IMG/VR virus record: IMGVR_UViG_3300045256_000458 | Coordinates: 1-27,130 of that record | From: a virus | Reading direction: 5' to 3' (one strand) | Length of the DNA stretch: 27,130 bases | Shown here: positions 5,823 through 26,530 of the stretch, one piece after another | Layout of the letters: each line of letters opens with the position of its first letter | How positions within the stretch are numbered: position 1 is the first letter of the stretch | The notes under the pieces: generated by a model | Databases searched by the model: none | The model's input: the letters and a program-made list of their open reading frames with translations, nothing else | What the model was told of the DNA's origin: nothing | Position numbers and translations under genes: made by a program

Positions 5823-6575
5823 CTACACCGCCTCCTTCTCGTTGCGATACTCGAACTTGCGCAATACGTCGATGCGGCGAGTCGGGTTCAGGTGAGCGTT
5901 GTACACCTCGGCGAGCATCAGCGCGCCGTCGCGGAAACTGTTGACAGTCGTCAATTTGTGCTCCGCGATCGCGTTGAGCCGGCGGACGAAGTGCTTGTGG
6001 TCGTACGCCTCGTGCTCGATCAGCGTGAGCAAAACCTGGATGAACTTGACCGCCTTGATCTTGCGGGCGAACACGCCGTCGCGAACCTCGATCAGGGACT
6101 TGATCGTTTCCCAGCGCTTCTTGAAGGTCAGGAAGGTCTTGCCGTCGATCTCAAGCGTACCGTCCAGGAGCGTGTTGTAACGCTTCGAGGTCATCCTACC
6201 GAACAGGAGCACGTGCAACGCCCCGGTGCTCAGCCCCGTCTTCTTTTGCAGGTTCACGAAGGTGTGGTAGCTCTCGTTGCCGCAGTTGTCGAAGAAGTTC
6301 ACGAAGTTCTGAGTCGTCCACGGCTTATGCAAGCGGTGCGCGTGCATCACGTCAACGGTCTTCGCGTCCTCGGAGATGAAGTACTTCACTGGCAGCCCGG
6401 CGAGCTTGGCGGCTTCAAGGCGATGATGGCCGGAGATGACCTTCAGTTCCCCCGTGTTTCCGCCAGTGACCTGAATAGGTTCCTGCTGGCCGCGCTTCAT
6501 GAAATCCTCGGCCAAGTCCTTTACGTAAACTCCTTGATAGACACAATCATACACCAATTGGATGCGATACGTCAA
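5823..6575 (-). CDS. ParB/sulfiredoxin-like protein (250 aa)
   Basis: The protein contains the ParB N-terminal (ParB/Srx) signature: YQGVYVKDLAEDFMKRGQQE followed by IQV, ELKVISGHHRLEAAKLAG (the GHHRLEAAK box at residues 49-57) and LPVKYFI. In this superfamily the fold binds nucleotide (CTPase in true ParB, nuclease or ATP binding in others). The remaining 170 residues are helical, with a helix-turn-helix-like stretch (KKTGLSTGALHVLLFGRMTS) that probably binds DNA. The TTG start at 6575 overlaps the stop of the upstream nuclease gene (TTGA), so translation is coupled. The stop is TAG. It could regulate transcription, segregate DNA or cut DNA or RNA; a partner ParA was not seen in the window. 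Confidence 0.75.
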   Translation of the reverse strand: MTYRIQLVYDCVYQGVYVKDLAEDFMKRGQQEPIQVTGGNTGELKVISGHHRLEAAKLAGLPVKYFISEDAKTVDVMHAHRLHKPWTTQNFVNFFDNCGNESYHTFVNLQKKTGLSTGALHVLLFGRMTSKRYNTLLDGTLEIDGKTFLTFKKRWETIKSLIEVRDGVFARKIKAVKFIQVLLTLIEHEAYDHKHFVRRLNAIAEHKLTTVNSFRDGALMLAEVYNAHLNPTRRIDVLRKFEYRNEKEAV

Positions 6576-8020
6576 TAAGGGGAATTATTTAGCCGACGAA
6601 ACACTAACTTTACCTTACCGCAATCCCATATCCTGACCAAACCGTCAGCCTCAGCGTGTTTACTCTCCGTCATCCCTGGGGGAGTTCCCGCCCGGCTCTT
6701 CTTCCTCGATTGCTTGGAAACTGCTTTCCCGGACGAGGTGGCGTAAAAGTAATCGGGAGGTAAGACGTCGGTTTTTATCCATCCGGCCGCAAGGTACCCC
6801 CTGGCCTGGCTCTTGGCCAAGTCTGCCCATGTGTACAAGTCCCGCCCAAACTTTCTTGAAGCCATGAGGGACATCTTGGATAACGCGCCAGATACGGTCG
6901 TTCCGTCCCTAAACGCAAATCGATTCAGGATGATCTCGCTGCCTCCCCGCCTGTGGTGTGCACCGAAGGTGGCGACCCCCAGCAGTTGTCCGTTCTTCTC
7001 GCACGCTACCGCATACCTCAAGGACCTAGGGGCTCCTTGAACGTGGTACGCTTCAAGAAACATCCTGGCTTCAGGCCCATCGCATTCGCGGAAAACGCAC
7101 TCACGAGCACCGATACGTTCAGTGTTGGCCCCTAGAGCAGACCTAAGGAATGACTTTACTTGAGGTTTTCTGTATTTCCATTCGTGCTCAAACACGTGCA
7201 GCAGTCTTATACCAGCAGCCTCGCATTTATTCGTGCGGTCTCGGTGGAAGTTCCTGGGCTTAAACTTTTCGCTATGCCAGTACAGGCCGTTAAACTCTAC
7301 GCCTACGCGAAGAGACGGGATGAATACGTCTAACTCCATCGTTCCTATCTTATGATGGCGAATTGCATCAGGAACAACCGACAGTACGTACTCGAACAGT
7401 TCCTTCTCTCCTTCGGACTCAGCGTAACCTGGGGCAGGTTTACCGGACTGGCGACCGGTTATCAGGTCATTAGGTCTACATTTAAACCATCCGCGACCTT
7501 CCCTACTGTCAAAGAACGAGCATTTCTTGCTGCTATCAAGGAATTCTTTGATCTCAGTGATGTGAGGGTACTTGGACCTAACGTGCTCCAACATAATCTC
7601 GGAAGAACGCTTCTGGCGCTTGTTCAGGCGGGGATGACCGGACTGATTACCCGTCATCAAGTATATCGGCTTAGCCGAGAACCATCCCCCGCCTGCGCGA
7701 GCGTCGAAGAACAGGCATAGTGAACCGGTGTTGGTGAAAGAGCGCTGGTCTATCTCGGACACGTACGGAAACCGCTCTTGGATTTTGCGTAAAACCTCGG
7801 TGCACGATAGTTTTCGTCTAGGATTGTAGTAGGGATGTCCGGAAGTTTGGCCACTAAGAAGGTAGACGGGCTTCGTCTCGAACCAGCCGGCGTTCGGCCG
7901 ATCGTCAAAGAATCGACACCTTGTCTGAGTATCGCGGTACGAGGCCGTATCGATCTTCGTGACGTGGGGGTACTTGGTCGATATCTTGGATAATACTTCT
8001 TGGACAGATAGTTTTTTCAT
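6572..8020 (-). CDS. VSR/EDxHD-type homing-endonuclease-like protein with triple N-terminal repeat (482 aa)
   Basis: Residues 4-70, 71-137 and 138-200 are three copies of one module: a helix (VLSKISTKYPHVTKID), then CxFFDxRxxxGWF, a KPxYL and a GxxSGHP end. They are probably DNA-reading units, like the repeated DUF723 modules of phage homing nucleases. Residues 201-290 hold the nuclease core: LDVFIPSLRVGVEFNGLYWH, then FHRDRTNKCEAAGIRLLHVF and EHEW, matching PD-(D/E)XK/VSR-type enzymes (D231, E242, H259 candidates). The C-terminal third (EAYHVQGAPRSL, GVATFGAHHRRGG, RFAF) is the GNAT-like domain seen in this family. The gene begins 28 nt after the tail-tube terminator, suggesting insertion there. 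A weak TATCAT -10-like box precedes it. The precise cut site is unknown. Confidence 0.75.
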   Translation of the reverse strand: MKKLSVQEVLSKISTKYPHVTKIDTASYRDTQTRCRFFDDRPNAGWFETKPVYLLSGQTSGHPYYNPRRKLSCTEVLRKIQERFPYVSEIDQRSFTNTGSLCLFFDARAGGGWFSAKPIYLMTGNQSGHPRLNKRQKRSSEIMLEHVRSKYPHITEIKEFLDSSKKCSFFDSREGRGWFKCRPNDLITGRQSGKPAPGYAESEGEKELFEYVLSVVPDAIRHHKIGTMELDVFIPSLRVGVEFNGLYWHSEKFKPRNFHRDRTNKCEAAGIRLLHVFEHEWKYRKPQVKSFLRSALGANTERIGARECVFRECDGPEARMFLEAYHVQGAPRSLRYAVACEKNGQLLGVATFGAHHRRGGSEIILNRFAFRDGTTVSGALSKMSLMASRKFGRDLYTWADLAKSQARGYLAAGWIKTDVLPPDYFYATSSGKAVSKQSRKKSRAGTPPGMTESKHAEADGLVRIWDCGKVKLVFRRLNNSPY

Positions 8021-8100: not shown

Positions 8101-8577
8101 TTAAGCTCCGTCGTCGATGTTCGACGCGTCGGCGGACTCGGAATCGCCGCCTTGGGCAATTCCGTACTCGTCTTCGCCGATAAGGCCGATGATGTCGAGC
8201 CGCAGGTCGGAGACACCGCGCTGAGCGACGCCGCCGGACCAGCCCATGACGCGGCAGCCGTCGGCCTGGAAGATCAGCTCGCCCGTCTGGCGATCAAGGA
8301 TCGCTACAGAGAAGTCGTCTTCCGTGAGGAGGTTCTTGAGCAGGGTCGCTTTGGCGACCGCGTAGGGGCCAGCGTTCACGACGCGGTAACCCGTCAACGT
8401 GATCTGTACCGGCGCCTGGTCGGTCGGCGTGATCTCGGCCGGCGAGTACCGACCAAGGACGTACAGCGCTTCTTTCCCTTGCCGCAGCGACCAGCTGCAG
8501 TTAGAGAAGAGGCCGACGAGGTTCCCGTTGATGAGAACCTTTGCCCTTGCACCCGTTAAGACTTTAGCTCTTGCCAT
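8101..8577 (-). CDS. tail tube protein (158 aa)
   Basis: It lies directly downstream of the sheath gene, the usual place for the tube in contractile-tailed phages, and has the expected size. The sequence shows the tube plan: an N-terminal strand pair (VLINGNLVGLFSNCSWSLRQ), a loop (GRYSPAEITPTDQAPVQITL), a helix (GPYAVAKATLLKNLLT) and more strands (FSVAILDRQTGELIFQADGC). Tube subunits stack as hexameric rings inside the sheath and carry DNA into the cell. The ATG has GGAGAG upstream. It stops with TAA TAA TAA, and the terminator follows. The acidic C-terminal tail (GGDSESADASNIDDGA) is probably flexible. The family is assigned by position and pattern, not by search. Confidence 0.8.
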   Translation of the reverse strand: MARAKVLTGARAKVLINGNLVGLFSNCSWSLRQGKEALYVLGRYSPAEITPTDQAPVQITLTGYRVVNAGPYAVAKATLLKNLLTEDDFSVAILDRQTGELIFQADGCRVMGWSGGVAQRGVSDLRLDIIGLIGEDEYGIAQGGDSESADASNIDDGA

Positions 8578-15574: not shown

Positions 15575-18346
15575 TCAGTCTCCGTTCTGCCCCTTGAACA
15601 GGTGGCGAACCTTGAACTTCTTGGTCTTGGTCCCCGGCTGCACGTCGTGCCCCATCGCCATGCTGGCGCGATTGGCAACGTCAGCGATCGCGCCTTGATC
15701 TAAAGCACCCTTATGGATCGGCTCTTCAGACTCCACCTCTGAGGGGTGGAACAAAGCGACCACGTTCGGTAGGTTAGAGCCAGAGTTCGAAAAACCATGG
15801 TAGCCCGCTTCCCGGATCTTGCCCAGGATCTTGTCGGAATTCCAGACGCCCTGGTTTTCTCTGACCGTTTGCTCGATGAGGCCGGCATGATCGTTTGCCA
15901 GGTCGTAGATCTTGTGTTCGGGCTTGAGAGACACGAAGTACTTGGAGCGAGCGGCGCCGGTCACGAGGTCTTCGGGCTTCGTGCCTTCTCGGTAAAAATA
16001 GGAGCGGGGGACCTCGGGCAGGCCGCGCTTGTACTCTTCCGACCGCACGCCCTTACCCTGGTGCTTAGGGTCGATCTGTTTCAATCCTTGGGTAGGAGAA
16101 TAATGGACGAGGCGAGCGGGAGCTGTCTTTTTGAGGGATTCGGTCTTTACTATCTTCTTGCCAACTTGATGTGCAAACTTTTGTGAATGTACCTGGTAAT
16201 CATGCGGTTCCACGATTACTTCATGCTCGCGACGTAATCGTTCACGAAGATCGTTCGGCTGTACAATATGCTTGAGTACAGAAACGACTTTTGATGCCGG
16301 TATCCATGCCGACGTGACGATACCGGTTCCGTGCCGGTGCGGACCATATTCTCCAAAAGCTTGAGCAACGTCCAAACTTGGAGTCCAGCCGACCCTTTGC
16401 GTAGACCGCTTAAGCATCACTGGATCTTTCGGGCCGTGACCTCTGTGTAACAGGAATTCATGCTCTCCGGTCTTTGGGTTTTTACGTACCGATGCCGCCG
16501 CGGCAAGCCGAGCGAGCGAGCGAGTGCGTATCCCGCCTTCCGATCGAGGTATGTTTGCCCTAGTATCCGCGAAGTTCGCTATCCAGTCCTGCGCAGCCTT
16601 TGAATCCACCTTTGATTGCTTTACGGGATGCTTAGATTGCCAGCTGCCCTTGTCGAGCTTCTCCGACTTCTTCATCGGGGTGACGTCGTTGTGGACCCAG
16701 TCCGGGAGCAGGCCAGCCTTCTGGTCGGCGTAGACCGTGTTGGCCGGATCCTTGCGGTTCTTCTCACCGTGAGGTCCAAAGTTAACCCAGGAGTTCTGTC
16801 CGCGCGTCTCGGTCGCCAACGCTTGCTGAGCGAGCGGCGAGTACATCTGCCGGTGCTCGTTCCAAGCGTTTTCCTCGCCTGTGTGGCCAAAGCCGTGACC
16901 TTCCTTCGCGTGTCCGAAGTAGTCATGCACGATGCGGAACATATCGTTCGCGAGTAAAGGTTTACCCTCGTGCTCCTCGCCGGTCGGGGCCAGCATCGGA
17001 TGGTCGGAACGGTTGTTGCTCGAGCCAAATCCCATCTCGGTCGGGTAGTACCAGAGGTGCCTGTTCTCGTTGACGTCGCGGTGGACATCCTTCGAGCCGT
17101 TCGGGTACGGGTTCGGCTGGCCCGGCTTCATGCGGGAGATCTTCAAGCCAGAGTTCTTGATGTGCTGGAACTGTTTCTTAGTCTCGTTGATCAAAGCGCC
17201 GTACGCGGCCTTCACCTTCGGATCGTTCGGCCGGTGAGGCATCTCGTGGTATGCCTGCGCGATGCGGGCGCCGCGGTTAGGGTCAACAGACAACTTCTGC
17301 GCAGGCTGGGGCGCGATGCCGGCCGATCGTAGGTAACCGTTAGCAACGTCGCGGACAGAAGCTTTCTTGCTTAAGGGTTCGCTCTTGCCTAGGCTTGCCT
17401 TGAAGCGGCCTGCTGACACAAACGGTTTCGTGTCGGCGCGAGTAACCTTGTATCCTTCGGGCGAGCGGGCCATGACCTCGAACGAGTCTCCCCAATGCTG
17501 GCGAGCGATTTGCCTTGCTGCGGCCGTAGCCGGATGCAGCGGGTTCGAGATGATTGAAGAATCAGCCTGGAGGTTGTGGCCGTCAGAACCGTGGTCTCTT
17601 CCTACGCCTACGGAAATCCAACCAGCTCCGAGAGCTTTACCGTAAGAATCGTCCGAGTATTTGTACGGATCGTGCTCGGGGCTTTGCTCGTGCAGCTCGG
17701 GATGATGAGCCTTCGTGTAGTCGTGGATCCACTCGTGGTGGTGCACGCCCTTTGGGACCTCGTGGAATTTTCCTTCCGGCGAGATGAAGCCCTTGGGTGC
17801 TTCAGCTTTGGTGAGAGCTTTGGTGATAGGCTCCGACTTCTTCGTTGCGCCGAAGTGCAGGCGAAAGCGCGCGGGGCCGGAGTTCGTATGAGTCAAAGAA
17901 AAGTCGTCGTCGAAGTGAGGCGCGATCTCGTGCTCGGTGCCGGTCTGCTCGTCATGGTGCTCGGTAGATGGGTGCGTCGGGATCAGCGAATGCGTCCCTT
18001 CCTCGGCGTGGATTACTGCCTGCTGGTTGTACTTGCGGCCGAGTTCGGTGGCCTGCTCTCGGGAGATCCCGTGGACCATGAAGCTCGGCTCGTGCTGTCC
18101 GCCCCACTGACCCATGAGAGGAGTCCAGCGGTGACCGGCGGACTGCAGATCTTGCTTGAACTTCTGGTAGTTGGCGGCGTTGGTCGCGGCATCGTCTTGC
18201 GCGCGGTACGGGGTCAGGAGGGCGTACTTACCGCGCTTTAAGTAGGCGGAAAGATGCTCGGGCGACTCGAATTCCTGGTGCTGCGGGTTCGGCCCGGTCC
18301 TAGGGAACGATCGGGCATGTAACTTGTGGAAGTAGGGGTGTGCCAC
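15575..18346 (-). CDS. multidomain polyvalent protein with ADP-ribosyltransferase-like domains (923 aa)
   Basis: Domains in order: about 30-125, DUF3293-like (KYALLTPYRAQDD, then EPSFMVHGISREQATELGRK); 185-315, a GFISPEGKFHEVPKGVHHHEW domain; 330-555, a phage domain with LWYYPTEMGFGSSNNRSDHP, FRIVHDYFGHAKEGHGFGH and ATETRGQNSWVNFGP; 595-720, an ADP-ribosyltransferase-like domain with the R-S-E layout (LLHRGHGP R635, WTPSLDVAQAF, REHEVIVEP with ExE 707-709); 743-870, a second ART-like or related domain (RLVHYSPTQGLKQIDP). ARTs move ADP-ribose from NAD to target proteins. The architecture fits injected phage effectors that modify the host at entry. The GTG start lacks a clear ribosome site and lies 10 nt after the previous stop. 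A single TGA separates it in frame from the GNAT gene. Confidence 0.75.
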   Translation of the reverse strand: MAHPYFHKLHARSFPRTGPNPQHQEFESPEHLSAYLKRGKYALLTPYRAQDDAATNAANYQKFKQDLQSAGHRWTPLMGQWGGQHEPSFMVHGISREQATELGRKYNQQAVIHAEEGTHSLIPTHPSTEHHDEQTGTEHEIAPHFDDDFSLTHTNSGPARFRLHFGATKKSEPITKALTKAEAPKGFISPEGKFHEVPKGVHHHEWIHDYTKAHHPELHEQSPEHDPYKYSDDSYGKALGAGWISVGVGRDHGSDGHNLQADSSIISNPLHPATAAARQIARQHWGDSFEVMARSPEGYKVTRADTKPFVSAGRFKASLGKSEPLSKKASVRDVANGYLRSAGIAPQPAQKLSVDPNRGARIAQAYHEMPHRPNDPKVKAAYGALINETKKQFQHIKNSGLKISRMKPGQPNPYPNGSKDVHRDVNENRHLWYYPTEMGFGSSNNRSDHPMLAPTGEEHEGKPLLANDMFRIVHDYFGHAKEGHGFGHTGEENAWNEHRQMYSPLAQQALATETRGQNSWVNFGPHGEKNRKDPANTVYADQKAGLLPDWVHNDVTPMKKSEKLDKGSWQSKHPVKQSKVDSKAAQDWIANFADTRANIPRSEGGIRTRSLARLAAAASVRKNPKTGEHEFLLHRGHGPKDPVMLKRSTQRVGWTPSLDVAQAFGEYGPHRHGTGIVTSAWIPASKVVSVLKHIVQPNDLRERLRREHEVIVEPHDYQVHSQKFAHQVGKKIVKTESLKKTAPARLVHYSPTQGLKQIDPKHQGKGVRSEEYKRGLPEVPRSYFYREGTKPEDLVTGAARSKYFVSLKPEHKIYDLANDHAGLIEQTVRENQGVWNSDKILGKIREAGYHGFSNSGSNLPNVVALFHPSEVESEEPIHKGALDQGAIADVANRASMAMGHDVQPGTKTKKFKVRHLFKGQNGD

Positions 18347-18632: not shown

Positions 18633-19865
18633 TCATCGATATGACGGGCTAGATTTGCTGATCTCGGACTTTGCCACCTTGAGCTTCGGCTTGTTGTACG
18701 CAGCAAGGTGCGGGTCGAATTCCCCGAACTCGCCGGGCTTCACCGTGATCCCCTTGCCGGGGAGCTTCTTCGTCCACTGGTGCTCGGTCGCGGGCGACAC
18801 GCGGGAGTCGGAGTAGACCTGGCCGTGCTGCTTGATCGCGAAGCGCTTAAGAGCTGTGTTCAACCCTTTGCCCTCGTGTCCAGGCTGGGTCGCCGAGAAA
18901 GAGATGTGGTGCGAGTCTGGGATCTCGAAGTACGGGTCTCCGCTGGAAACTTGGACGGAGGAGATCGCGCGGGAGTGCGGCTGGTCATCTTGGGTGATGA
19001 CGTAATGCGTAATGCTCTTCGGTTCATTTTCATCGCCAGAGCCTTGCTCGCGGAACACATGGATCTTACGGCCGAGCGCCTTATGCCGATAAGTCTTCAG
19101 GTGCCTGCCGAGGCGCGCGTGCTGGCTGTCCCAGTCCATATCTTCTCGGACGTTCTCGTAGCCCGACGACACTACAGGGGACTTCTTCAACTTGGGATCT
19201 TCCACGGACCTGAGCTTCGCGTAGTACTCGGGGTCTTCCTGCAGGTGGTCCATAGCGATCTCGCGCGCCACGGAAGGATCACTCGTGTGCTCTTTCTCCA
19301 CGTTCGCGCCCTGCTTGAGCTTCTTCTGGTCGAAGTCGGAATGCTTCTTTCCGGCCGCAAGGCCGCCTGGGATCTTCTTCTTGAACTCGCTCTTCTCCGT
19401 GCGCTGGTCGCCGTCCATCATGCTGTCGGCCGCCTGCTCCGAGGTCGTAGAAGAGAGTTTCTCTCGTCTGACACGCTCCTGCTTGAGCCAAGCTAGCAGT
19501 ATGTTGTTATTCTTTGGGATCTGCCAGTTACCGGACTGCTGCGGGTTCAAGAACTTTAGCTCCGAGAATTCCTGGTCAGGGTCGTTCTTGTAGCCCTCCA
19601 TGTCGTACTTCTGGGGAAGCTTCGCGGAATAGAGTATAAGCGTGCCGTCACCGGACGGAAGCGGCATCTCGTGCAGGCGGTGGAACTCGCGGGCGTCGAT
19701 CCCGGTCTCTTCTAAAAGTTCTCGGTGAGCACTTTCGACGTCGGTCTCCCCCTTCTCGACGTGACCGGACGGCGCGCACCACTTCTGGGAATCACGTCTT
19801 TTCCCGTGGAGGAACAGTCCTTCAAGGATAGGGTGTTGCACGGCGATCACGACCACGCGCTTCAT
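18633..19865 (-). CDS. Nudix hydrolase-DUF5661-acetyltransferase-like fusion (410 aa)
   Basis: An open frame reaches 19943, but the ATG at 19865 overlaps the previous stop (ATGA), has GGAG nine bases upstream and starts a proper Nudix fold (MKRVVVIAVQHPILEGLFLH). The Nudix box is complete at 34-56 (GHVEKGETDVESAHRELLEE then TGI). Residues about 165-220 match DUF5661 (GGLAAGKKHSDFDQKKLKQG, then VEKEHTSDPSVAREIAMDHL). Residues 259-394 look like the GNAT-like domain of phage polyvalent proteins (PGHEGKGLNTALKRFAIKQH, VYSDSRVSPATEHQW). Nudix enzymes cut nucleoside diphosphate compounds such as ADP-ribose or NADH, which fits the ADP-ribosyltransferase-like gene nearby. The substrate is not shown by the sequence. 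Confidence 0.8.
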   Translation of the reverse strand: MKRVVVIAVQHPILEGLFLHGKRRDSQKWCAPSGHVEKGETDVESAHRELLEETGIDAREFHRLHEMPLPSGDGTLILYSAKLPQKYDMEGYKNDPDQEFSELKFLNPQQSGNWQIPKNNNILLAWLKQERVRREKLSSTTSEQAADSMMDGDQRTEKSEFKKKIPGGLAAGKKHSDFDQKKLKQGANVEKEHTSDPSVAREIAMDHLQEDPEYYAKLRSVEDPKLKKSPVVSSGYENVREDMDWDSQHARLGRHLKTYRHKALGRKIHVFREQGSGDENEPKSITHYVITQDDQPHSRAISSVQVSSGDPYFEIPDSHHISFSATQPGHEGKGLNTALKRFAIKQHGQVYSDSRVSPATEHQWTKKLPGKGITVKPGEFGEFDPHLAAYNKPKLKVAKSEISKSSPSYR

Positions 19866-20125
19866 TTCTGCTGCTCCGTGTTCAGTACTGCCTTTGCGGT
19901 CATGTGCTTGATGGCCCGCGTCAGACCGTTGCAGTCGGCGCACTCAGTGACCGACGGCGAGAAAACGAGGTTACACTTCGGGCAACTCCAGCCGCTAGAC
20001 TGCATCAGCTGCGTTGGCGCTTGCGCTGGGACAAGCAAGTGCTGGACGCAGGTGGAACACGTCCCCTGGCACATGCAGCACGCAGACTGCATCATCCCCT
20101 GAACTTGTACAGCTAACAAACTCAT
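19862..20125 (-). CDS. small double zinc-ribbon protein (87 aa)
   Basis: The ATG at 20125 is chosen over a TTG at 20134 because it overlaps the previous stop (ATGA) and has GAGG at a workable distance. The first part holds SACCMCQGTCSTC, a dense Cys cluster. The second part is a canonical zinc ribbon (WSCPKCNLVFSPSVTECADC, CxxC...CxxC). The C-terminal helix (LTRAIKHMTAKAVLNTEQQK) is amphipathic. It is co-translated with the 51-aa Cys-rich protein before it and the Nudix fusion after it. Small Zn ribbons of this form are common and uncharacterised in phages. Nucleic-acid or protein contacts are likely. Confidence 0.75.
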   Translation of the reverse strand: MSLLAVQVQGMMQSACCMCQGTCSTCVQHLLVPAQAPTQLMQSSGWSCPKCNLVFSPSVTECADCNGLTRAIKHMTAKAVLNTEQQK

Positions 20126-20277
20126 CTCTCGCAATCCTCGTGGTGGGGAACCCAGCTACCGCAATACACGCACCAGTCGCATCCGCTCCTGCGGTTTTGC
20201 CAACGCGAAGTACTGACTTCGGGCAGCAGGCACTTCGGGTTGTGGCCGAAGATCCAGCAGTAGATCTTGCGAAGCAT
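20122..20277 (-). CDS. Cys-rich micro-protein (51 aa)
   Basis: Read on the minus strand, an ATG at 20277 overlaps the preceding gene's TGA (TGATG) and follows GAGGAG. It encodes MLRKIYCWIFGHNPKCLLPE, a basic linker, then CDWCVYCGSWVPHHEDC before TGA at 20124-20122, which itself overlaps the next ATG. The C and H residues (two in the first half, and CxxCxxC with HH and C in the second) suit one or two zinc sites. Overlaps at both ends strongly support a real gene. The function is unknown. Confidence 0.75.
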   Translation of the reverse strand: MLRKIYCWIFGHNPKCLLPEVSTSRWQNRRSGCDWCVYCGSWVPHHEDCER

Positions 20278-21254
20278 CAGGAGTTCTCCTCGCCAAAATC
20301 GGGATCCTTAGATAGTCGCCAGCCCTGAGCTAGGACCTGTTCCTTGTAGTTCTCGGGCGTAACTAAGGCGTCGCAGATCTTGATCCCACCCTTGACGCCG
20401 GCAAGGCGCGGGGCAACGTACTTGATCCACGAAAGCTCGACCTGACCGGTCAGCGACACGCTCTTGAACCACACGTTCTCCGGATCGTAACGCGGTGCTT
20501 TCTGGAGGGGTGAAGAACCGAATGTAGAGATCTCGAACCCTCGGGCTTCAAGCCACACTTCCTTATACCGACCCAGGCAGTATACCACGATCGCGTGCAG
20601 CCACTGAGCGTAAACTGGATCCGACGACGCCATGCAGACCAGGGAGTAGGAGTGCCGCAGGAAGGTCTGCTCCCGCTGCAGGTTCCAGAGCGCGGACATG
20701 GGCGTTACGTAGCAGTTCGTCAAATCGACCCGAACTCCTGGCTTGATCTGAAAGGCATTCTTGCCAACCAGCTTCCTAACCTGATACGCAGACCCTGTCC
20801 TGGAGACGAGGAACATTCCGGGGAACAGCGCCTCGTTCGTGACTCCCTTTGGGAAAGTGACGGTGCCGCTGGCCGCGTCGTAGTTCGACGGGGTAAACGG
20901 GGCATAGACGTAGTCCGGGGTCGTCTCGATGTTCTTGGGGTCGAAATCTTCTGGGTAGCCGCGGTCGTCCGACAAAGCCGCTCGGTTCTCCATCTCCTGG
21001 TCGCCTGAATCCACGATCACGATGCAGGGGAACGTCGGGGTGTCGATGCGCTGCTGCATGAAGACGCCGATGTTGTTGGAAAGGAACCATTCCTTGAAGC
21101 GCTTGCGCTCCTTGTCGCCGTACTCGGCTTCAGAGATGTCGCCGGCAGAGAAACCGGCCGAGATGTCGTCCACAACGTAGTCGTTGGCTCGCAGGTCCGC
21201 GATCGCCGCCTCCAGCATGGTCTTCAGCAGGATATCTGTTTGGATGTACGACAT
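20277..21254 (-). CDS. putative neck/tail-completion structural protein (325 aa)
   Basis: The ATG at 21254 is the first start after a 121-nt A+T-rich gap with a hairpin, so the gene may begin a subtranscript. The N-terminal helix (MSYIQTDILLKTMLEAAIAD) resembles neck or tail-terminator proteins. A long alpha/beta body follows: FMQQRIDTPTFPCIVIVDSG, TVTFPKGVTNEALFPGMFLV, WLHAIVVYCLGRYKEVWLEA and VWFKSVSLTGQVELSWIKYV. The last, a strand with polar and hydrophobic alternation near the C terminus, is typical of proteins joining head and tail. The assignment rests on position between other virion genes and on pattern only. Confidence 0.55.
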   Translation of the reverse strand: MSYIQTDILLKTMLEAAIADLRANDYVVDDISAGFSAGDISEAEYGDKERKRFKEWFLSNNIGVFMQQRIDTPTFPCIVIVDSGDQEMENRAALSDDRGYPEDFDPKNIETTPDYVYAPFTPSNYDAASGTVTFPKGVTNEALFPGMFLVSRTGSAYQVRKLVGKNAFQIKPGVRVDLTNCYVTPMSALWNLQREQTFLRHSYSLVCMASSDPVYAQWLHAIVVYCLGRYKEVWLEARGFEISTFGSSPLQKAPRYDPENVWFKSVSLTGQVELSWIKYVAPRLAGVKGGIKICDALVTPENYKEQVLAQGWRLSKDPDFGEENS

Positions 21255-21375: not shown

Positions 21376-22230
21376 TCAACCCTTAGCGATCGAGTCGATC
21401 TCGTCCTGCATCGTCCGGATTATGGTCTCTACCTGCTGGGACGCCCAGTCGTGGGCTTCCTTGATGGAGTGCAGTCCAGGACGAGGAGGGGCGAACCAGC
21501 GCCCTTCCTTTTTGTGAGCTTCCGTGATCGTACGGAACGTGATCGCCTCTCGCACTACCTTGCCCTTCTGGTTCTTCCTCTGGACGATGAGAGTATCTTG
21601 CAACAGCGAGATACCGCCGTGGGCGGGAAGGCCGGTTAGTTCGGCCATCGCCTGGGAGCGCGGCTCGGAGTATAGCGTCGGGAACTGAGACTGCGGACCA
21701 GGCATCTGGGGACTAATGCGATGCAGCACGCCGAGCTTAGGAGTTCCGTCCGGATTCTTCTCGATCTTCTTAAGTGGGATCTTGTTCTCTTTCAGGGCAG
21801 ACTTGATGATCGCAGCGAGCGCCGGGTTACGGGGAGTTGCCGTAGAGTTCAGCTTACCGTTGCTGATCGGGATACGAGCGTAGAGAGTACCCTTCTTGCT
21901 GACCTTTGCCTTCGGGTTCTTGGTCAGCAGCCAATCCATGAACTGCGGCTCCGTACGGCCTTCCTCGATCCATGCTACGGACTGGTCGATCTCGACGACC
22001 CACATGGAGTCGCCGACCTGCGTCCAGCGCACGTTCTTGTTGTCTGGCCCCAGGAACTGTTCGAGCAGATTACCGGAAAGCTTCTCCTGGGCCTGGTGGA
22101 CGATGAAGGCGTGGGTCGCAACAGAGAGCTGCTGTACCTTGGTGCGCAGGCCGGGAAGGATGTCGTTGACCGTCTTGTTCAAGAGGTCAGCGAGCTTTTG
22201 GGCGTCTACCGAGATCTCAAGCTTTGCCAT
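21376..22230 (-). CDS. HK97-gp10-like tail-completion candidate (284 aa)
   Basis: The ATG lies 14 nt inside the end of the preceding gene. The N-terminal helix (LADLLNKTVNDILPGLRTKV), the second helix (ATHAFIVHQAQEKL) and the strand pair VGDSMWVVEIDQSVAWIEEG follow the plan of HK97 gp10-like tail-completion proteins, which sit at the head-tail joint. A basic insert (NPKAKVSKKGTLYARIPISN) and a C-terminal helix (LHSIKEAHDWASQQVETIIR) make it longer than the usual gp10 family. It lies next to other neck candidates. The assignment is from pattern and position. Confidence 0.5.
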   Translation of the reverse strand: MAKLEISVDAQKLADLLNKTVNDILPGLRTKVQQLSVATHAFIVHQAQEKLSGNLLEQFLGPDNKNVRWTQVGDSMWVVEIDQSVAWIEEGRTEPQFMDWLLTKNPKAKVSKKGTLYARIPISNGKLNSTATPRNPALAAIIKSALKENKIPLKKIEKNPDGTPKLGVLHRISPQMPGPQSQFPTLYSEPRSQAMAELTGLPAHGGISLLQDTLIVQRKNQKGKVVREAITFRTITEAHKKEGRWFAPPRPGLHSIKEAHDWASQQVETIIRTMQDEIDSIAKG

Positions 22231-23290
22231 CGGCCTTGGCCTCTGACTCAGCGTTGATTTCTTTCACAGAGATCGGCGCACCGTTCTGATCCTTAACCTG
22301 ACCAGAACGCATGCTTCGCCAGCGAGCGCGTCCGCCTACCAGAACCTTCTTCTTACCGTTAAACTGGGTTCCGATGGGGGCCGCGTGCGGGACCGGAGTC
22401 TCGACGTGGGCCGCTTTCTTTACGTCCTGGTCTTTCGTCAGCTTAGATTTTTGAACTTTTTTTTTAGACTGGTGCTGCTTCGCCACGGCCACGAGCTTGT
22501 TGACCATGTTCATGGTCGCCTTGAACGCGGCCGGGTTCTTGTCCGCGAGCGCCATGATCTGCGGGATCTTTTCGTGAACAGTGTGGAGGGTCTGCGCAAG
22601 GCGGTCTCCGACGGGATCGGATTCCTGCTCGTCGACCTCTTCCTTTTGCTCGGGTTCAGGCTGCTGCTGCGCTCCGCCCTGCACTTCTGCCTGCGACGGA
22701 GGTGTCGCGGGCGGTTGAGGCGGGTTCGGGTTAAAGCCGAGTTCCTGCGCCATTGCTTGGATCAACGCGGCGTTACCCTGGGCGGCCTGTTCGGGAGAAA
22801 GAGATTTCGGGGGCGCAGCCGGCTGGGGCTCAGGCAAAGCGTAGTCGGGTTCTTCCGGCTGCACCGGATCGAACACGTTGGAGAGAGGCTTATCTTCTTT
22901 GGGCTTTGACGCAGCTTCCTCGTCGAGTTCCGAGCCGTACAGTTCGATCTCGCCGGTCGACTCCGATCGTTCAGCAGCTTCAGAAGCTTCGAGCATGGAC
23001 AGGCCGATGCCCATCGCGAGCTTGTAGTGGAAGCGCTTCTCGAACTCTTCCGAGAACTCAACCATCTGGTCGGCTCGGGTGGACGGAAGCTCAAGGACAG
23101 ACTTCTCGTACAGGTGCAGGTGGAGGTGACCGCCGCAGTTCTGAGCAAAGCTTTCCACCTCGTCGTAGAACGACTTCAGGTTCTGGGAGAGCCGGTTGGC
23201 CTCGGTCATCATCCCGCGATCGATCAGCTTGGAGAGCTTGTCTCCGATCTGACGGCAGGAAAGGACGATATATACTGACTCAGAGGTCAC
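22217..23290 (-). CDS. virion-operon protein with degenerate cyclase/GGDEF/mCpol-like palm domain (357 aa)
   Basis: A GTG at 23290 follows AAGGGG. Residues 6-118 follow the palm-domain layout: VYIVLSCRQIGDKLSKLIDR, a long helix (ANRLSQNLKSFYDEVESFAQ), GGHLHLHLYEKSVLELP and KLAMGIGLSMLEASEAAERS. In active nucleotidyl cyclases and mCpol the first strand carries DGDxIG and the hairpin carries GDD. Here these are SCRQIG (11-16) and YEKS (61-64), so the metal ligands are gone, while IGxKL and MGIG...EA remain. A Pro/Gln-rich linker (about 130-225), a helical part (KIPQIMALADKNPAAFKATM) and a lysine-rich tail follow. It is probably a structural or nucleotide-sensing domain, not an active enzyme. 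The fold call is by pattern only. Confidence 0.55.
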   Translation of the reverse strand: MTSESVYIVLSCRQIGDKLSKLIDRGMMTEANRLSQNLKSFYDEVESFAQNCGGHLHLHLYEKSVLELPSTRADQMVEFSEEFEKRFHYKLAMGIGLSMLEASEAAERSESTGEIELYGSELDEEAASKPKEDKPLSNVFDPVQPEEPDYALPEPQPAAPPKSLSPEQAAQGNAALIQAMAQELGFNPNPPQPPATPPSQAEVQGGAQQQPEPEQKEEVDEQESDPVGDRLAQTLHTVHEKIPQIMALADKNPAAFKATMNMVNKLVAVAKQHQSKKKVQKSKLTKDQDVKKAAHVETPVPHAAPIGTQFNGKKKVLVGGRARWRSMRSGQVKDQNGAPISVKEINAESEAKADGKA

Positions 23291-23300
23291 GGAGTACCCC

Positions 23301-25241
23301 TTACTTGAAACGTTTTCCCGCGAGCAAGCTGGCTTTCAGGAGAAGCAGGAACATGCGCTGGGATTCCGGATCGGAGTCCTTCGCGAACACTACGCGCTGC
23401 TTCCCGTCTTGACCCTTCACGAGTTCCACGAACTTCTTCGGCTGGCCATCGTCGGCGACGGTCTCGGAGGCGAAGCACGCGCAGGGCGCAAAGCGCGGAC
23501 CGGTCTCGGACTTCTTGAACTCAGGTTCGCCGCAGGTCAGGCACGGGCTGTAGATCTCTTCGTCGGTAACCAGGAAACTCTTTTCGGACTTCTGGGTGGC
23601 CATGGCAGATTGCGCGGGCTTCGGAGCCTTCATCTGCGGCTTAGGCATGGTCGACTTCATCTTGGGCTGCGCCAGCTTCTTGTTGCTGGGAGAAGCTGAA
23701 GGAGCAGCGGCTACGGCGGGGATCGCCGAGGCAGCGCCCGTAACCATGCCGGCCTTGCCTAGCTCAGACTTCGGCAACTTCGGCGCGGGCATGCGCTTCA
23801 AGTCTCGGAGAACGCCTTTGTGTTTTTTCACCGCTTGGGCGGTAAACCGTTCGCCGCGCGCCTGTCTGGCCGACTCTCTGACCATGTGACCGGCGGGACT
23901 AACGCCTTCGCGGGTCTTGGAACCGGTGGTATTAGGCCAGTAGGCAGCTTGGTGCACGCCCTTCTCGTCGGCCTTGCCTAGTTCGGCGGCCGCCAGCTTC
24001 GTCGGGGACTTCTTGGACCGCAAAATGCGATAGATGTTGTTCGAGGACGCGACCTTGGCCTGGCGGATCTGATGGGCCGCGGTTTCCGGGTGGTCGCTGA
24101 AGGACTGGGCGCGGCGGGCGTAGTCGCCCATCTCGCTCTGTCCGGGGCGGCTGTCGCTGGCCGGAGCGTGCACGTCAGGCTGCATCGCGGAGGCAGCGCG
24201 CTTGCGGGTGCCGCGCATCCAGCGCTTGAAGCGCTGCTCAAGCTCCGGGTGGATGCCCTGCTTGTTGAACTCGTGCTCGTCGATCTTGGCCTTCTCGGTG
24301 TGCTCGGGCAGCTTCCCGCCCTTGTCGGCGTTCGAGAATTCTTTGCCAACCTTCTTTGGGATCCCGATGGTCGACTTGCCGGCAGCAGCAGCGTGCATCG
24401 CGCGGCGCTGGGCTTCGGATACAGGAGGCTTGCGAAGCTCTTCCTTCTTAACCGGCTTACCGTTGTGGTCTGTCTTGGAAGGATCTTGGGGTTTGCCGAA
24501 CTTTAGCTTGGCGGTACGACCGTTTAATTCAGCTTCCGGTGCCTTCTTTTGACCAGGCTTGATCTCTTCCTTGCTCACAGCGTGGGCCATGGCGGAGATG
24601 TCGTCGTCCTTGTCGGTCGACTTCTTGGACTTGTCGGCGCGCTTCTTGTCCGGGAGCTTCTGGTCTAATGGTTTCAGGTCGATCTCGGTCTGGATCGGAC
24701 CGCGGGACTCCTCGATGCTCGGGTCCGCGTTGCGGGCCGCCACGAGGTCCTTCTGGGTGTCGTACGGGTTCTTGTTGTCGCGCACTTCCTGGGAGTCGGA
24801 GTGCTCGGAATCCTCTTTCGCTTCGATCTTGGCCTTTACGAGCGTGGCGATCGCGTCGCCCAGGGACTTCTTGATCGGCTCGACCTCAAGACGGAGCTGC
24901 TCGCGGGTCGGTTTGCCTTCTAAGGTAGACGCAACGGCGCCGGCAACGGCCAAGTAGCCCGCTTCGTTCATACCGAGGTGCGACAAGGATCCGCCTACCA
25001 CGAGGTCGGAAGCGATTGAGCCGTCCTCGCGCTTCTCGAAGTAGCAGTCCGTGCTGGTGCCGGGGATCCGGAAGTAACCAGCTTCGAGCGGCTTCAAGGC
25101 GCTTGCGGTCTCAGACGCCCATTCGGCCACCGCTCTGGTAACCGCGTAGTGCGCTTTGGCACCGGTAACGCTCTTGGCAAGCAGGCGGTCGGCGGCCTGG
25201 TTTCCGATCAAAGCCTTCAATACGGTCTTGAGTTGTGCCAT
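23301..25241 (-). CDS. large lysine-rich virion-operon protein with KGVH module and C-terminal zinc site (646 aa)
   Basis: A GTG at 25250 is possible, but the ATG at 25241 has the better ribosome site (GAAGTGAG). Numbered from the GTG frame, residues 5-140 are a folded alpha/beta domain (LKTVLKALIGNQAADRLLAK, YFRIPGTSTDCYFEKREDGS). The middle (140-480) is a basic, low-complexity chain containing an IGIPKKVGKEFSNADKGGKL segment seen in other phage proteins. The KGVHQ module (430-499) ends MPAPKLPKSELGK. An Ala/Pro/Lys spacer follows, then a C-terminal domain with CLTCGEPEF and APCACF, a likely zinc site. The family is not recognised. The basic disordered design fits an internal head or packaged protein. 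Confidence 0.65.
   Translation of the reverse strand: MAQLKTVLKALIGNQAADRLLAKSVTGAKAHYAVTRAVAEWASETASALKPLEAGYFRIPGTSTDCYFEKREDGSIASDLVVGGSLSHLGMNEAGYLAVAGAVASTLEGKPTREQLRLEVEPIKKSLGDAIATLVKAKIEAKEDSEHSDSQEVRDNKNPYDTQKDLVAARNADPSIEESRGPIQTEIDLKPLDQKLPDKKRADKSKKSTDKDDDISAMAHAVSKEEIKPGQKKAPEAELNGRTAKLKFGKPQDPSKTDHNGKPVKKEELRKPPVSEAQRRAMHAAAAGKSTIGIPKKVGKEFSNADKGGKLPEHTEKAKIDEHEFNKQGIHPELEQRFKRWMRGTRKRAASAMQPDVHAPASDSRPGQSEMGDYARRAQSFSDHPETAAHQIRQAKVASSNNIYRILRSKKSPTKLAAAELGKADEKGVHQAAYWPNTTGSKTREGVSPAGHMVRESARQARGERFTAQAVKKHKGVLRDLKRMPAPKLPKSELGKAGMVTGAASAIPAVAAAPSASPSNKKLAQPKMKSTMPKPQMKAPKPAQSAMATQKSEKSFLVTDEEIYSPCLTCGEPEFKKSETGPRFAPCACFASETVADDGQPKKFVELVKGQDGKQRVVFAKDSDPESQRMFLLLLKASLLAGKRFK
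23754..23963 (-). repeat. third full copy of the KGVH...MPAPKLPK module
   Basis: It encodes KGVHQAAYWPN, a polar middle, then KKHKGVLRDLKRMPAPKLPK SELGK. It matches the two copies at 12075-12464 in order and spacing, although the host gene is about 10 kb away and otherwise unrelated. Confidence 0.75.
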
Positions 25242-25246
25242 GTGTC

Positions 25247-25624
25247 TCACTTCAGGTAGCTGTCGTCCACGATGATGTAACCGAAAACTTCTGCGTCGTC
25301 CGCGATCACCCAGAGGTTGGGGCCGGCGGCAAGGACCGTGTAGACTCCGGGCGGTACGGCGATGCCGTTGGCCGGACCAGTAGGCGCCGCGACAGAGCTG
25401 TCGGAACCGAACGCTACGTTATGAGCGCTCGTGCCGGAGTTCCAGATCGCGATCAACTTGCCGGGATCAGTAAGATTTTTTGCGGAGTCCAGCGCGCCGA
25501 TGGGGATCAGCTGTCCGAGGGTCGGCCCGAGCACCTTTACGGCGCCAGCCGGCTCGTTGTACTGTTCGTTGTGGATGCGGCCTATGTCTCGCATCCCGTC
25601 GCGCGGTTTCTGTCTCTCTGCCAT
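25247..25624 (-). CDS. small beta-rich structural protein (125 aa)
   Basis: The ATG follows GGGAG. After a polar start (MAERQKPRDGMRDIGRIHNE) the sequence is beta-rich: VKVLGPTLGQLIPIGALDSA, LIAIWNSGTSAHNVAFGS, GIAVPPGVYTVLAAGPNLWV and FGYIIVDDSYLK. The Ile/Val-Gly-Pro pattern, small size and lack of Cys recall phage capsid decoration or head-stabilising proteins. The gene is in the virion operon beside the 290-aa structural gene. Its stop overlaps the GTG of the following large basic protein. Confidence 0.55.
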   Translation of the reverse strand: MAERQKPRDGMRDIGRIHNEQYNEPAGAVKVLGPTLGQLIPIGALDSAKNLTDPGKLIAIWNSGTSAHNVAFGSDSSVAAPTGPANGIAVPPGVYTVLAAGPNLWVIADDAEVFGYIIVDDSYLK

Positions 25625-25657: not shown

Positions 25658-26530
25658 TCATTTCGGGCCTAAAGTGCCGCCCGAAGGAGAACTGTACGCA
25701 GCCCTCTTGCTCTGTAAAACATCGTAAGGTGTTCGAGCCTGGTCGTGGAAAACCTTCTCGCGGGCTATCAGTACTTGGTAAGGCATTCGCTCGACGGACC
25801 TCTCGTAGGTGGCGGGGTCTGTGACCTGCGCTGCGCGCATCTCGTGCAGGATCTTTGAGACAACGTAGAAGCCGGTATACCGGTACCGGATGCTGCAAAC
25901 TATGCCGCGCCCAGTCACGGGATTGATGCCTGGACGGTTCTGGCTGATCCACCGCACGTCGCCCTCTGGGGTGATGACGAAATCGATGTTCTCCTTGTAC
26001 TCCTTGTCGGTCGAATCGTAGAGGAACTCCACGCAGGATACCGGAAAGTTCATGCGGTCGATACCGGTAGGGCTAGCTTCAAACTTCTGCAACGCCACGA
26101 CGCGCATCTCAACGTCTTTCAGGAAGAAGCGGTCCCAGTCGGACACGAGGAGCGGGGTAGTGCCATCGTCGTAGGTCGTGGGAAGAGTAAGGTAGGCCGT
26201 GGAGGAAGATAGTACGCCCTCGTCTTCGATGGTCAGGTCGGTGCTGTTGGCCTGCATCCATCCGGTGAAGCATCCGGCCTCGATGTACTTGAAGCCGTCG
26301 ATGCTCTGGCGCTTACCGAGCACATCGTGCTGGTCTCCGCGCGAAGCCTGTCCCGAAACGTCGGGGACGGCGCGAAAGTGCGTGAAGCGCAGGCCCTGGG
26401 AGCGGATCATCTCGTCGAACGCGCCCTTGTCGAAGGACACTTGTTCTTGCGGGATCTCCGTTAGGATCTGCTCGCCGATCGTCATCGCCTTCTTGCGACC
26501 GCGCGGCCCTTTTCCATTAATACTTGACAT
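25658..26530 (-). CDS. putative neck/head-tail structural protein (290 aa)
   Basis: The ATG lies one base after the stop of the preceding Cys-rich gene. The body is beta-rich with a virion look: FTHFRAVPDVSGQASRGDQH, YIEAGCFTGWMQANSTDLTI, DWDRFFLKDVEMRVVALQKF, VEFLYDSTDKEYKENIDFVI and RGIVCSIRYRYTGFYVVSKI. The end holds helices (HEMRAAQVTDPATYERSVER) and a flexible tail (SSPSGGTLGPK). No catalytic motif is present. Position upstream of other structural genes suggests a neck or portal-proximal role. The exact family is not recognised. Confidence 0.55.
   Translation of the reverse strand: MSSINGKGPRGRKKAMTIGEQILTEIPQEQVSFDKGAFDEMIRSQGLRFTHFRAVPDVSGQASRGDQHDVLGKRQSIDGFKYIEAGCFTGWMQANSTDLTIEDEGVLSSSTAYLTLPTTYDDGTTPLLVSDWDRFFLKDVEMRVVALQKFEASPTGIDRMNFPVSCVEFLYDSTDKEYKENIDFVITPEGDVRWISQNRPGINPVTGRGIVCSIRYRYTGFYVVSKILHEMRAAQVTDPATYERSVERMPYQVLIAREKVFHDQARTPYDVLQSKRAAYSSPSGGTLGPK

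Follow-up and report, generated by a model that had tools for sequence, protein, structure and literature searches.

What does a diverged palm domain do in the tail operon of a phage, and is it still an enzyme? The question is raised by one gene in the window, which is the whole stretch of DNA that was analyzed, an IMG/VR record of 27,130 bases that is probably a fragment. At its 3' end this gene shares 14 bases with the next gene. The original prediction placed a catalytically dead palm of the mCpol, GGDEF, or Cas10 kind at the N terminus of its product and named a decoy, a sensor, or a recruited structural fold as possible roles. In 2025 mCpol was characterized as the bacterial half of a tripwire aimed at phages with cyclic-nucleotide sponges. 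Below, palms that have lost the catalytic Asp are called dead, and those that keep the catalytic motifs are called intact. The features are listed in Table 1.

Table 1. Features of the window and of related loci (positions without a locus prefix refer to the window)
Feature	Position	Strand	Basis or remark
Palm pseudoenzyme gene	22217..23290	minus	357 aa, GTG start
Palm (mCpol-like) domain, residues 2-118	22937..23287	minus	Pfam, AF2 model, Foldseek, hhalign
Ser11 codon, place of catalytic Asp6 of KpOptS	23258..23260	minus	alignment to OptS
Glu62 codon, place of catalytic Asp57 of KpOptS, still acidic	23105..23107	minus	alignment to OptS
Pro/Gln/Glu-rich linker, residues about 119-224	22619..22936	minus	low confidence: most blocks pLDDT <50
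Conserved helical segment, residues about 222-284, EKIPQIMALADKNPAAFK...	22439..22627	minus	dead-protein comparison and model
Conserved short beta tail, residues about 300-345, PIGT...WRS...GQVKD..G.PISV	22256..22393	minus	dead-protein comparison and model
gp7.1-like structural gene, always directly downstream of dead palm	21376..22230	minus	profile matches
gp7.2-like gene	20277..21254	minus	profile matches
Gene with C-terminal Zn-ribbon-like segment (CxxC...CxC), directly upstream of palm	23301..25250	minus
SPO1 gp6.4-like virion structural protein	25658..26530	minus	phrog_1004, E 7.1e-15
Tail sheath, 928 aa	8727..11513	minus	Mx1 homologue annotated tail sheath
Tail-tube-like gene	8101..8577	minus
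Nudix and DUF5661 cargo-type protein	18633-19943	minus-strand block	Pfam
923-aa cargo protein, DUF3293/SAM-lyase-like part	15575-18346	minus	Pfam
Intact mCpol domains (DGDN...GGD[DE]) in structural-operon proteins, six distinct phages	L018:15842-17284, L005:1513-4896, L039:7707-8639(-), L041:10474-12201, L037:5063-7822, L036:8578-9636(-)

Palm fold and domain layout

The best Pfam match of the window protein was mCpol (PF18182; E 0.0023), with a score of 18.7 bits, below the curated cut-off of 26.4 bits. A six-frame search of the window record found the palm as its only mCpol place (E 6.5e-6). Neither the protein nor the rest of the window matched the GGDEF family (PF00990), and the hairpin of the protein reads LYEK instead of GG[DE][DE]F. 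The protein likewise had no match to the Pfam family Cas10-Cmr2_palm2 or in a PHROGs search.

The AF2 palm model was built from residues 2 to 128 with 12 aligned palms. It had a pLDDT of 89.6 and a pTM of 0.80, and the order of its elements was b-a-a-b-b-a-b-a. Its top PDB match was the mCpol of Panoptes, OptS (Foldseek E 2.8e-5), with a VIA Z of 14.9 and an rmsd of 2.1 A over 117 aligned residues. Y-family Dpo4 (Z 13.2, rmsd 3.6), Csm Cas10 (Z 12.7), and the GGDEF protein DosC (Z 12.1) ranked lower. A second, full-length model was built from six dead sequences only, which guards against bias from the intact palms. Its palm was again closest to OptS (Z 14.8), and the dead-only profile also retrieved OptS first from the PDB (E 6.7e-4). 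The predicted N-terminal palm and its kinship with mCpol, GGDEF, and Cas10 were both borne out, and the AlphaFold and Foldseek check proposed with them returned a palm with OptS in first place.

The closest entry in the viral structure library was A0A6J5L1I5 (TM-score 0.88 over the query). It is a 365-aa uncharacterized protein from an uncultured Caudovirales phage and probably a further member of the family.

A chance resemblance was ruled out, because the diverged, syntenic protein of Myxococcus phage Mx1 (WNM70340.1, annotated as hypothetical) also matches mCpol, as its sole Pfam match (E 0.00046), and because the dead-only and intact-only profiles align with an E value of 5.7e-13 (hhalign). 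The global shuffle test between the window and Mx1 proteins gave a z of 9.2. Dpo4 and Cas10 were set aside as the nearest folds. OptS had the higher Z, the palm is common to all of these structures, and the sequence profile points to mCpol.

In the dead-only model, residues from about 119 to 224 are mostly disordered and are followed by helices (225-280) and then by a small beta element (about 305-340). This three-part layout (palm; disordered linker and helices; short beta tail) is common to the dead-palm orthologues. All dead proteins have the helical segment and beta tail, and no other ORF of the 15 loci searched matched them at E 1e-3 or better.

Dead and intact palms in one phage lineage

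Searches with a sheath alignment returned seven IMG/VR loci. The intact-palm alignment returned seven loci with five new records, and the dead-palm alignment returned two, one of them new. Near-duplicates, recognized by equal or nearly equal match scores, were left out of the counts (G004 of G003 and G009 of G010). Records G005, G007, and G002 are fragments that end short of the palm slot and were left out of the slot counts. There were seven distinct dead-palm proteins (window, Mx1, G001, G003, G006, G008, and G013) and six distinct intact mCpol palms (G001, G002, G008, G010, G011, and G012), so that G001 and G008 contain both. The check suggested at the outset, for homologues in phages with DGD and GGDD retained, was thus answered by six intact palms in related phages.

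All six intact palms exceeded the Pfam mCpol cut-off (E 6e-11 to 2e-19). Single Pfam scans of the dead proteins of G001, G006, G008, and G013 gave no mCpol match; six-frame searches gave weak matches in G003 (E 0.0025) and G006 (E 0.015). The window palm was 13 to 16% identical to its intact relatives. The viral_contigs set yielded no new relatives with the window protein, the palm alone, or the gp6.4-like protein, and only known records with A18 or the G001 dead palm. From genome_contigs, a scan recovered a single locus (L042), which was partial and matched weakly. Against phage records, tblastn gave four weak matches (E 0.5 to 9), one of which was the syntenic Mx1 gene, and another such search gave none. 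An intact palm used as the query against phage records retrieved only the Mx1 dead palm (E 0.03).

Residues were compared by alignment of the 7 dead and 6 intact palms to OptS. KpOptS uses D6 and D57, and Asn at either position is reported to abolish activity (PMC12657218). D6, D8, D57, GG, and GKxxGKN were all present in 6/6 intact palms. The window palm has S11-C12-R13 in place of DGD. The D6 site reads S/S/A/A/A/N/N in the order window, Mx1, G006, G003, G013, G001, and G008, and the Asp is lost in 7/7. In the same order the D57 site reads E/A/D/D/D/E/E and is acidic in 6/7. The D8-equivalent Asp is kept in four of the seven. GKxxGKN is absent from all seven, and none keeps the GG pair. The position of the catalytic GG turn is occupied by L60-Y61 in the window palm, within LYEK. 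G53-G54 precede that strand and are conserved in the dead family. Columns conserved specifically in the dead family include G53, L58, Y61, E67, I115, and Y118, among others.

The catalytic loss that was predicted is therefore seen at D6, now Ser11, and in the absence of GKxxGKN. As read from the alignment, the term "catalytically dead" stands for these two losses and not for the loss of all acids. The original prediction had all acidic metal ligands replaced. This was correct for DGD, which became SCR, and incorrect for YEKS, whose E62 aligns with D57 and is still acidic. It had also described the GG hairpin as kept; the glycine pair present in the window palm is G53-G54, ahead of the turn.

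S30 and N34 are reported to be the ATP-selectivity residues of mCpol (PMC12657230). Both positions vary across the dead set, and a Ser equivalent to S30 is present in the window and Mx1 palms. At the S30 site the intact palms have Ser in G002, G011, and G012 and Asp in G001, G008, and G010. An Asp at the matching position of GGDEF enzymes favors guanine. By this analogy the intact palms may differ in their products.

The dN/dS of the dead palms was 0.22 for G001/G008, and it was 0.04 for G006/G013 and 0.05 for G006/G003, the last two being rough because dS is near saturation in those pairs. The gene is therefore maintained under purifying selection. A decaying pseudogene was ruled out on the same three pairs. 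In a tree of 14 rows, six dead palms formed one clade (support 100/99). All seven, including Mx1, grouped in 62% of bootstraps, and the placement of Mx1 is unsure. From these sequences, a single inactivation event likely lies behind the dead palms.

Operon slot and neighboring genes

The order Zn-ribbon gene, dead palm, gp7.1-like gene, gp7.2-like gene, and, further on, sheath was found in 7/7 distinct dead-palm phages. In Mx1, two extra genes separate the Zn-ribbon gene from the palm. It is this gene order that suggests the palm gene is a virion gene.

In record G012, an intact palm (DGDN...GGDE) immediately precedes the gp7.1-like gene, and the flanking segments are different. The helical segment and tail were not found in this protein in the 15-locus search (E 1e-3). 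What G012 has in common with the dead proteins is therefore the slot and the domain and not the whole protein. A Zn ribbon upstream of its palm was seen by eye, and the HMM match fell short of 1e-3. The G012 palm is a possible evolutionary intermediate. The G010 slot contains a repeat protein, with no palm in the 2.2 kb before the gp7.1-like gene on the contig, and the intact palm of G010 is about 20 kb downstream of the slot. In SPO1, no palm gene lies between gp6.4 and gp7.1. The palm is therefore not universal in this tail module.

All six intact palms are on sheath-bearing records, at most about 17 kb from the sheath. The one in G011 is upstream of the gp6.4-like gene. Several occur as fusions with GNAT, Nudix, or repeat domains, and they are located in different genes. 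By their motifs, the six proteins are candidate phage cyclic-dinucleotide synthases.

Cargo enzymes (Nudix, GNAT, and ART) are among the neighboring genes of these operons. The 923-aa cargo protein of the window contains five K[STA]E processing motifs against 0.92 expected, and these are perhaps processing sites. The palm protein contains none, so cleavage of the palm protein gains no support. No CRISPR genes were found among the window ORFs that were scanned.

Other genes of these operons were recorded in passing. The window encodes a 482-aa ORF (6572-8020, minus strand) that adjoins the tube gene. Three repeats, each about 70 aa long, can be seen by eye. The ORF also has a weak endonuclease match (MTES_1575, E 0.0072), and from its sequence it looks like a homing-endonuclease-type insertion. 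A 250-aa ORF (5823-6575, minus strand) contains a ParB-like stretch by eye (ISGHHRLEAAKLAG) and had no Pfam match at E 0.01. Long HEAT-like repeat proteins are encoded in the same structural operons (L018:854-3055, with NLHPEAQKQLAQSKDE-type repeats, and L038:43-2172), and one of them sits in the G010 palm slot. Mx1 encodes a GGDEF protein with NDFG and GGDEF motifs (L002:1113-1844; Mx1 17173-17904). Its gene is separated from the preceding prohead protease gene by one short gene and lies ahead of the major capsid gene.

Possible roles and comparison with known systems

We favor, with a probability of roughly 0.55, an exapted pseudoenzyme that serves as a virion or assembly component. In this scheme a virion-operon copy of an mCpol palm, descended from an active enzyme of this lineage, would have lost its catalytic Asp. 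The dead palm would then have become fixed in the head-tail or tail-completion block of one SPO1-like myovirus lineage. It would now be a folded protein-protein module, probably dimerizing. The disordered linker would tether it to the helical segment and short beta tail, and these would dock it on the assembling particle or on neighboring proteins. As far as the records go, the dead palm is independent of intact mCpol, because no intact copy was found in five of the seven distinct dead-palm phages. Three observations pull the other way. The palm is missing from SPO1 and from the G010 slot, the acidic D57 site (6/7) and the D8-equivalent Asp (4/7) would be compatible with residual binding of metal or nucleotide, and the cargo-enzyme neighbors make an injected effector possible. 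Among the decoy, sensor, and recruited fold of the original prediction, the data favor the recruited fold without settling the choice.

The retained acids speak for a sensor or sponge. Its dead pocket would bind, but not turn over, an NTP or a cyclic dinucleotide, either once injected into the cell or at a late stage of infection. The Ser equivalent to S30 in the window and Mx1 palms is consistent with this role, and phages are reported to sponge cyclic nucleotides often (PMC12657218). However, S30 and N34 are not conserved, GKxxGKN is lost in 7/7, and the GG turn is replaced, so that the pocket is without visible joint constraint, and we regard this role as doubtful. The Acb2/Tad1 anti-CBASS sponge (PF24729) matched 0 of 11 records, and the control likewise matched nowhere.

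A somewhat more tentative proposal starts from the intact copies. The lineage may have taken over a Panoptes-type enzyme. Its intact copies, delivered or made in infection, would keep the effector silenced as an anti-Panoptes measure or hijack other cyclic-dinucleotide defenses, and in the branch of the window the slot copy would have lost catalysis and would persist in the virion as a pseudoenzyme, still able to engage the palm cyclases of the host or what they produce. The mCpol product is reported to hold the Panoptes toxin silent, which a catalytic mutant does not, and raised expression of mCpol-2TMb is reported to lower defense (PMC12657230). By analogy, phage-supplied mCpol could therefore blunt Panoptes. 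The authors of the Panoptes work state that they expect a phage counter to be discovered (PMC12657218). We found no report of a phage-encoded or anti-Panoptes mCpol in the open-licence PMC literature. The palms of this lineage hint at the recruitment of a host immune enzyme by phages.

It is unlikely that the dead palm is packaged and injected as a decoy that pairs with OptS, Cas10, or GGDEF proteins and poisons or titrates them. The operons are rich in cargo enzymes, and mCpol is reported to act as a palm dimer with its site split between protomers (PMC12657218, PMC12657230). Blocking OptS would nevertheless set the toxic effector free, and the phage should suffer from this. The low identity of the window palm to its intact relatives also argues against pairing, and a structural part is the better fit for the fixed slot and the conserved, docking-like tail.

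The co-occurrence of dead and intact palms in G001 and G008, and the GGDEF protein in Mx1, would fit a regulatory role in which the dead palm partners an intact mCpol or GGDEF enzyme within one virion, comparable to Palm1-Palm2 of Cas10. Four of the seven dead-palm phages nevertheless have no recognizable intact mCpol or GGDEF, in records that may be incomplete for all but Mx1, and GGDEF was found in only 1 of 12 records searched (Mx1); we consider such a partner quite improbable. A still-active enzyme with an altered metal site is the least credible, since D6 is replaced in 7/7 and D6N alone is reported to have abolished KpOptS activity (PMC12657218), even though E62 is acidic and the printed alignment shows AADG, not GGDD, for KpOptS itself.

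In our view, the intact mCpol domains in phage genes are a larger surprise than the dead palm. A lineage whose structural operon contains mCpol palms of both kinds offers testable candidates for a Panoptes counter. It is also a clear case in which the fold of an immune-signaling enzyme has become a conserved part of a phage operon.

The SPO1-type (Herelleviridae) tail module of gp6.4, gp7.1, gp7.2, sheath, and tube is a homologous gene block and differs in the missing palm gene. The polyvalent phage proteins (PMC5512222) are multidomain, whereas the dead-palm protein has one recognizable enzyme-derived domain, which is inactive. GGDEF domains in polyvalent proteins were proposed there as a source of cyclic nucleotides (Iyer et al. 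2017; PMC5512222), and mCpol is named nowhere in that paper (0 occurrences). Some of the genes neighboring the palm do resemble polyvalent proteins. GGDEF diguanylate cyclases and Cas10 have the same palm fold with lower Z. The intact phage mCpol proteins belong to the same lineage and operon and have a homologous palm, but they keep D6, D8, D57, and GKxxGKN and are different genes.

The mCpol/OptS of Panoptes (PF18182; PDB 9mnr, 9pd0, and 9nwn) has the same palm fold and length and is the best profile and structure match. The dead proteins differ from it in the loss of D6 (7/7) and in the added linker, helices, and beta tail. OptS adjoins a 2TM-beta effector, whereas the neighbors of the palm are Zn-ribbon and gp7.1-like genes in a phage tail operon. 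The window protein has the mCpol scaffold but lacks the catalytic Asp and scores below the Pfam cut-off, and we therefore do not class it with the mCpol enzymes. It is a pseudoenzyme that either derives from the mCpol family or is a sister to it.
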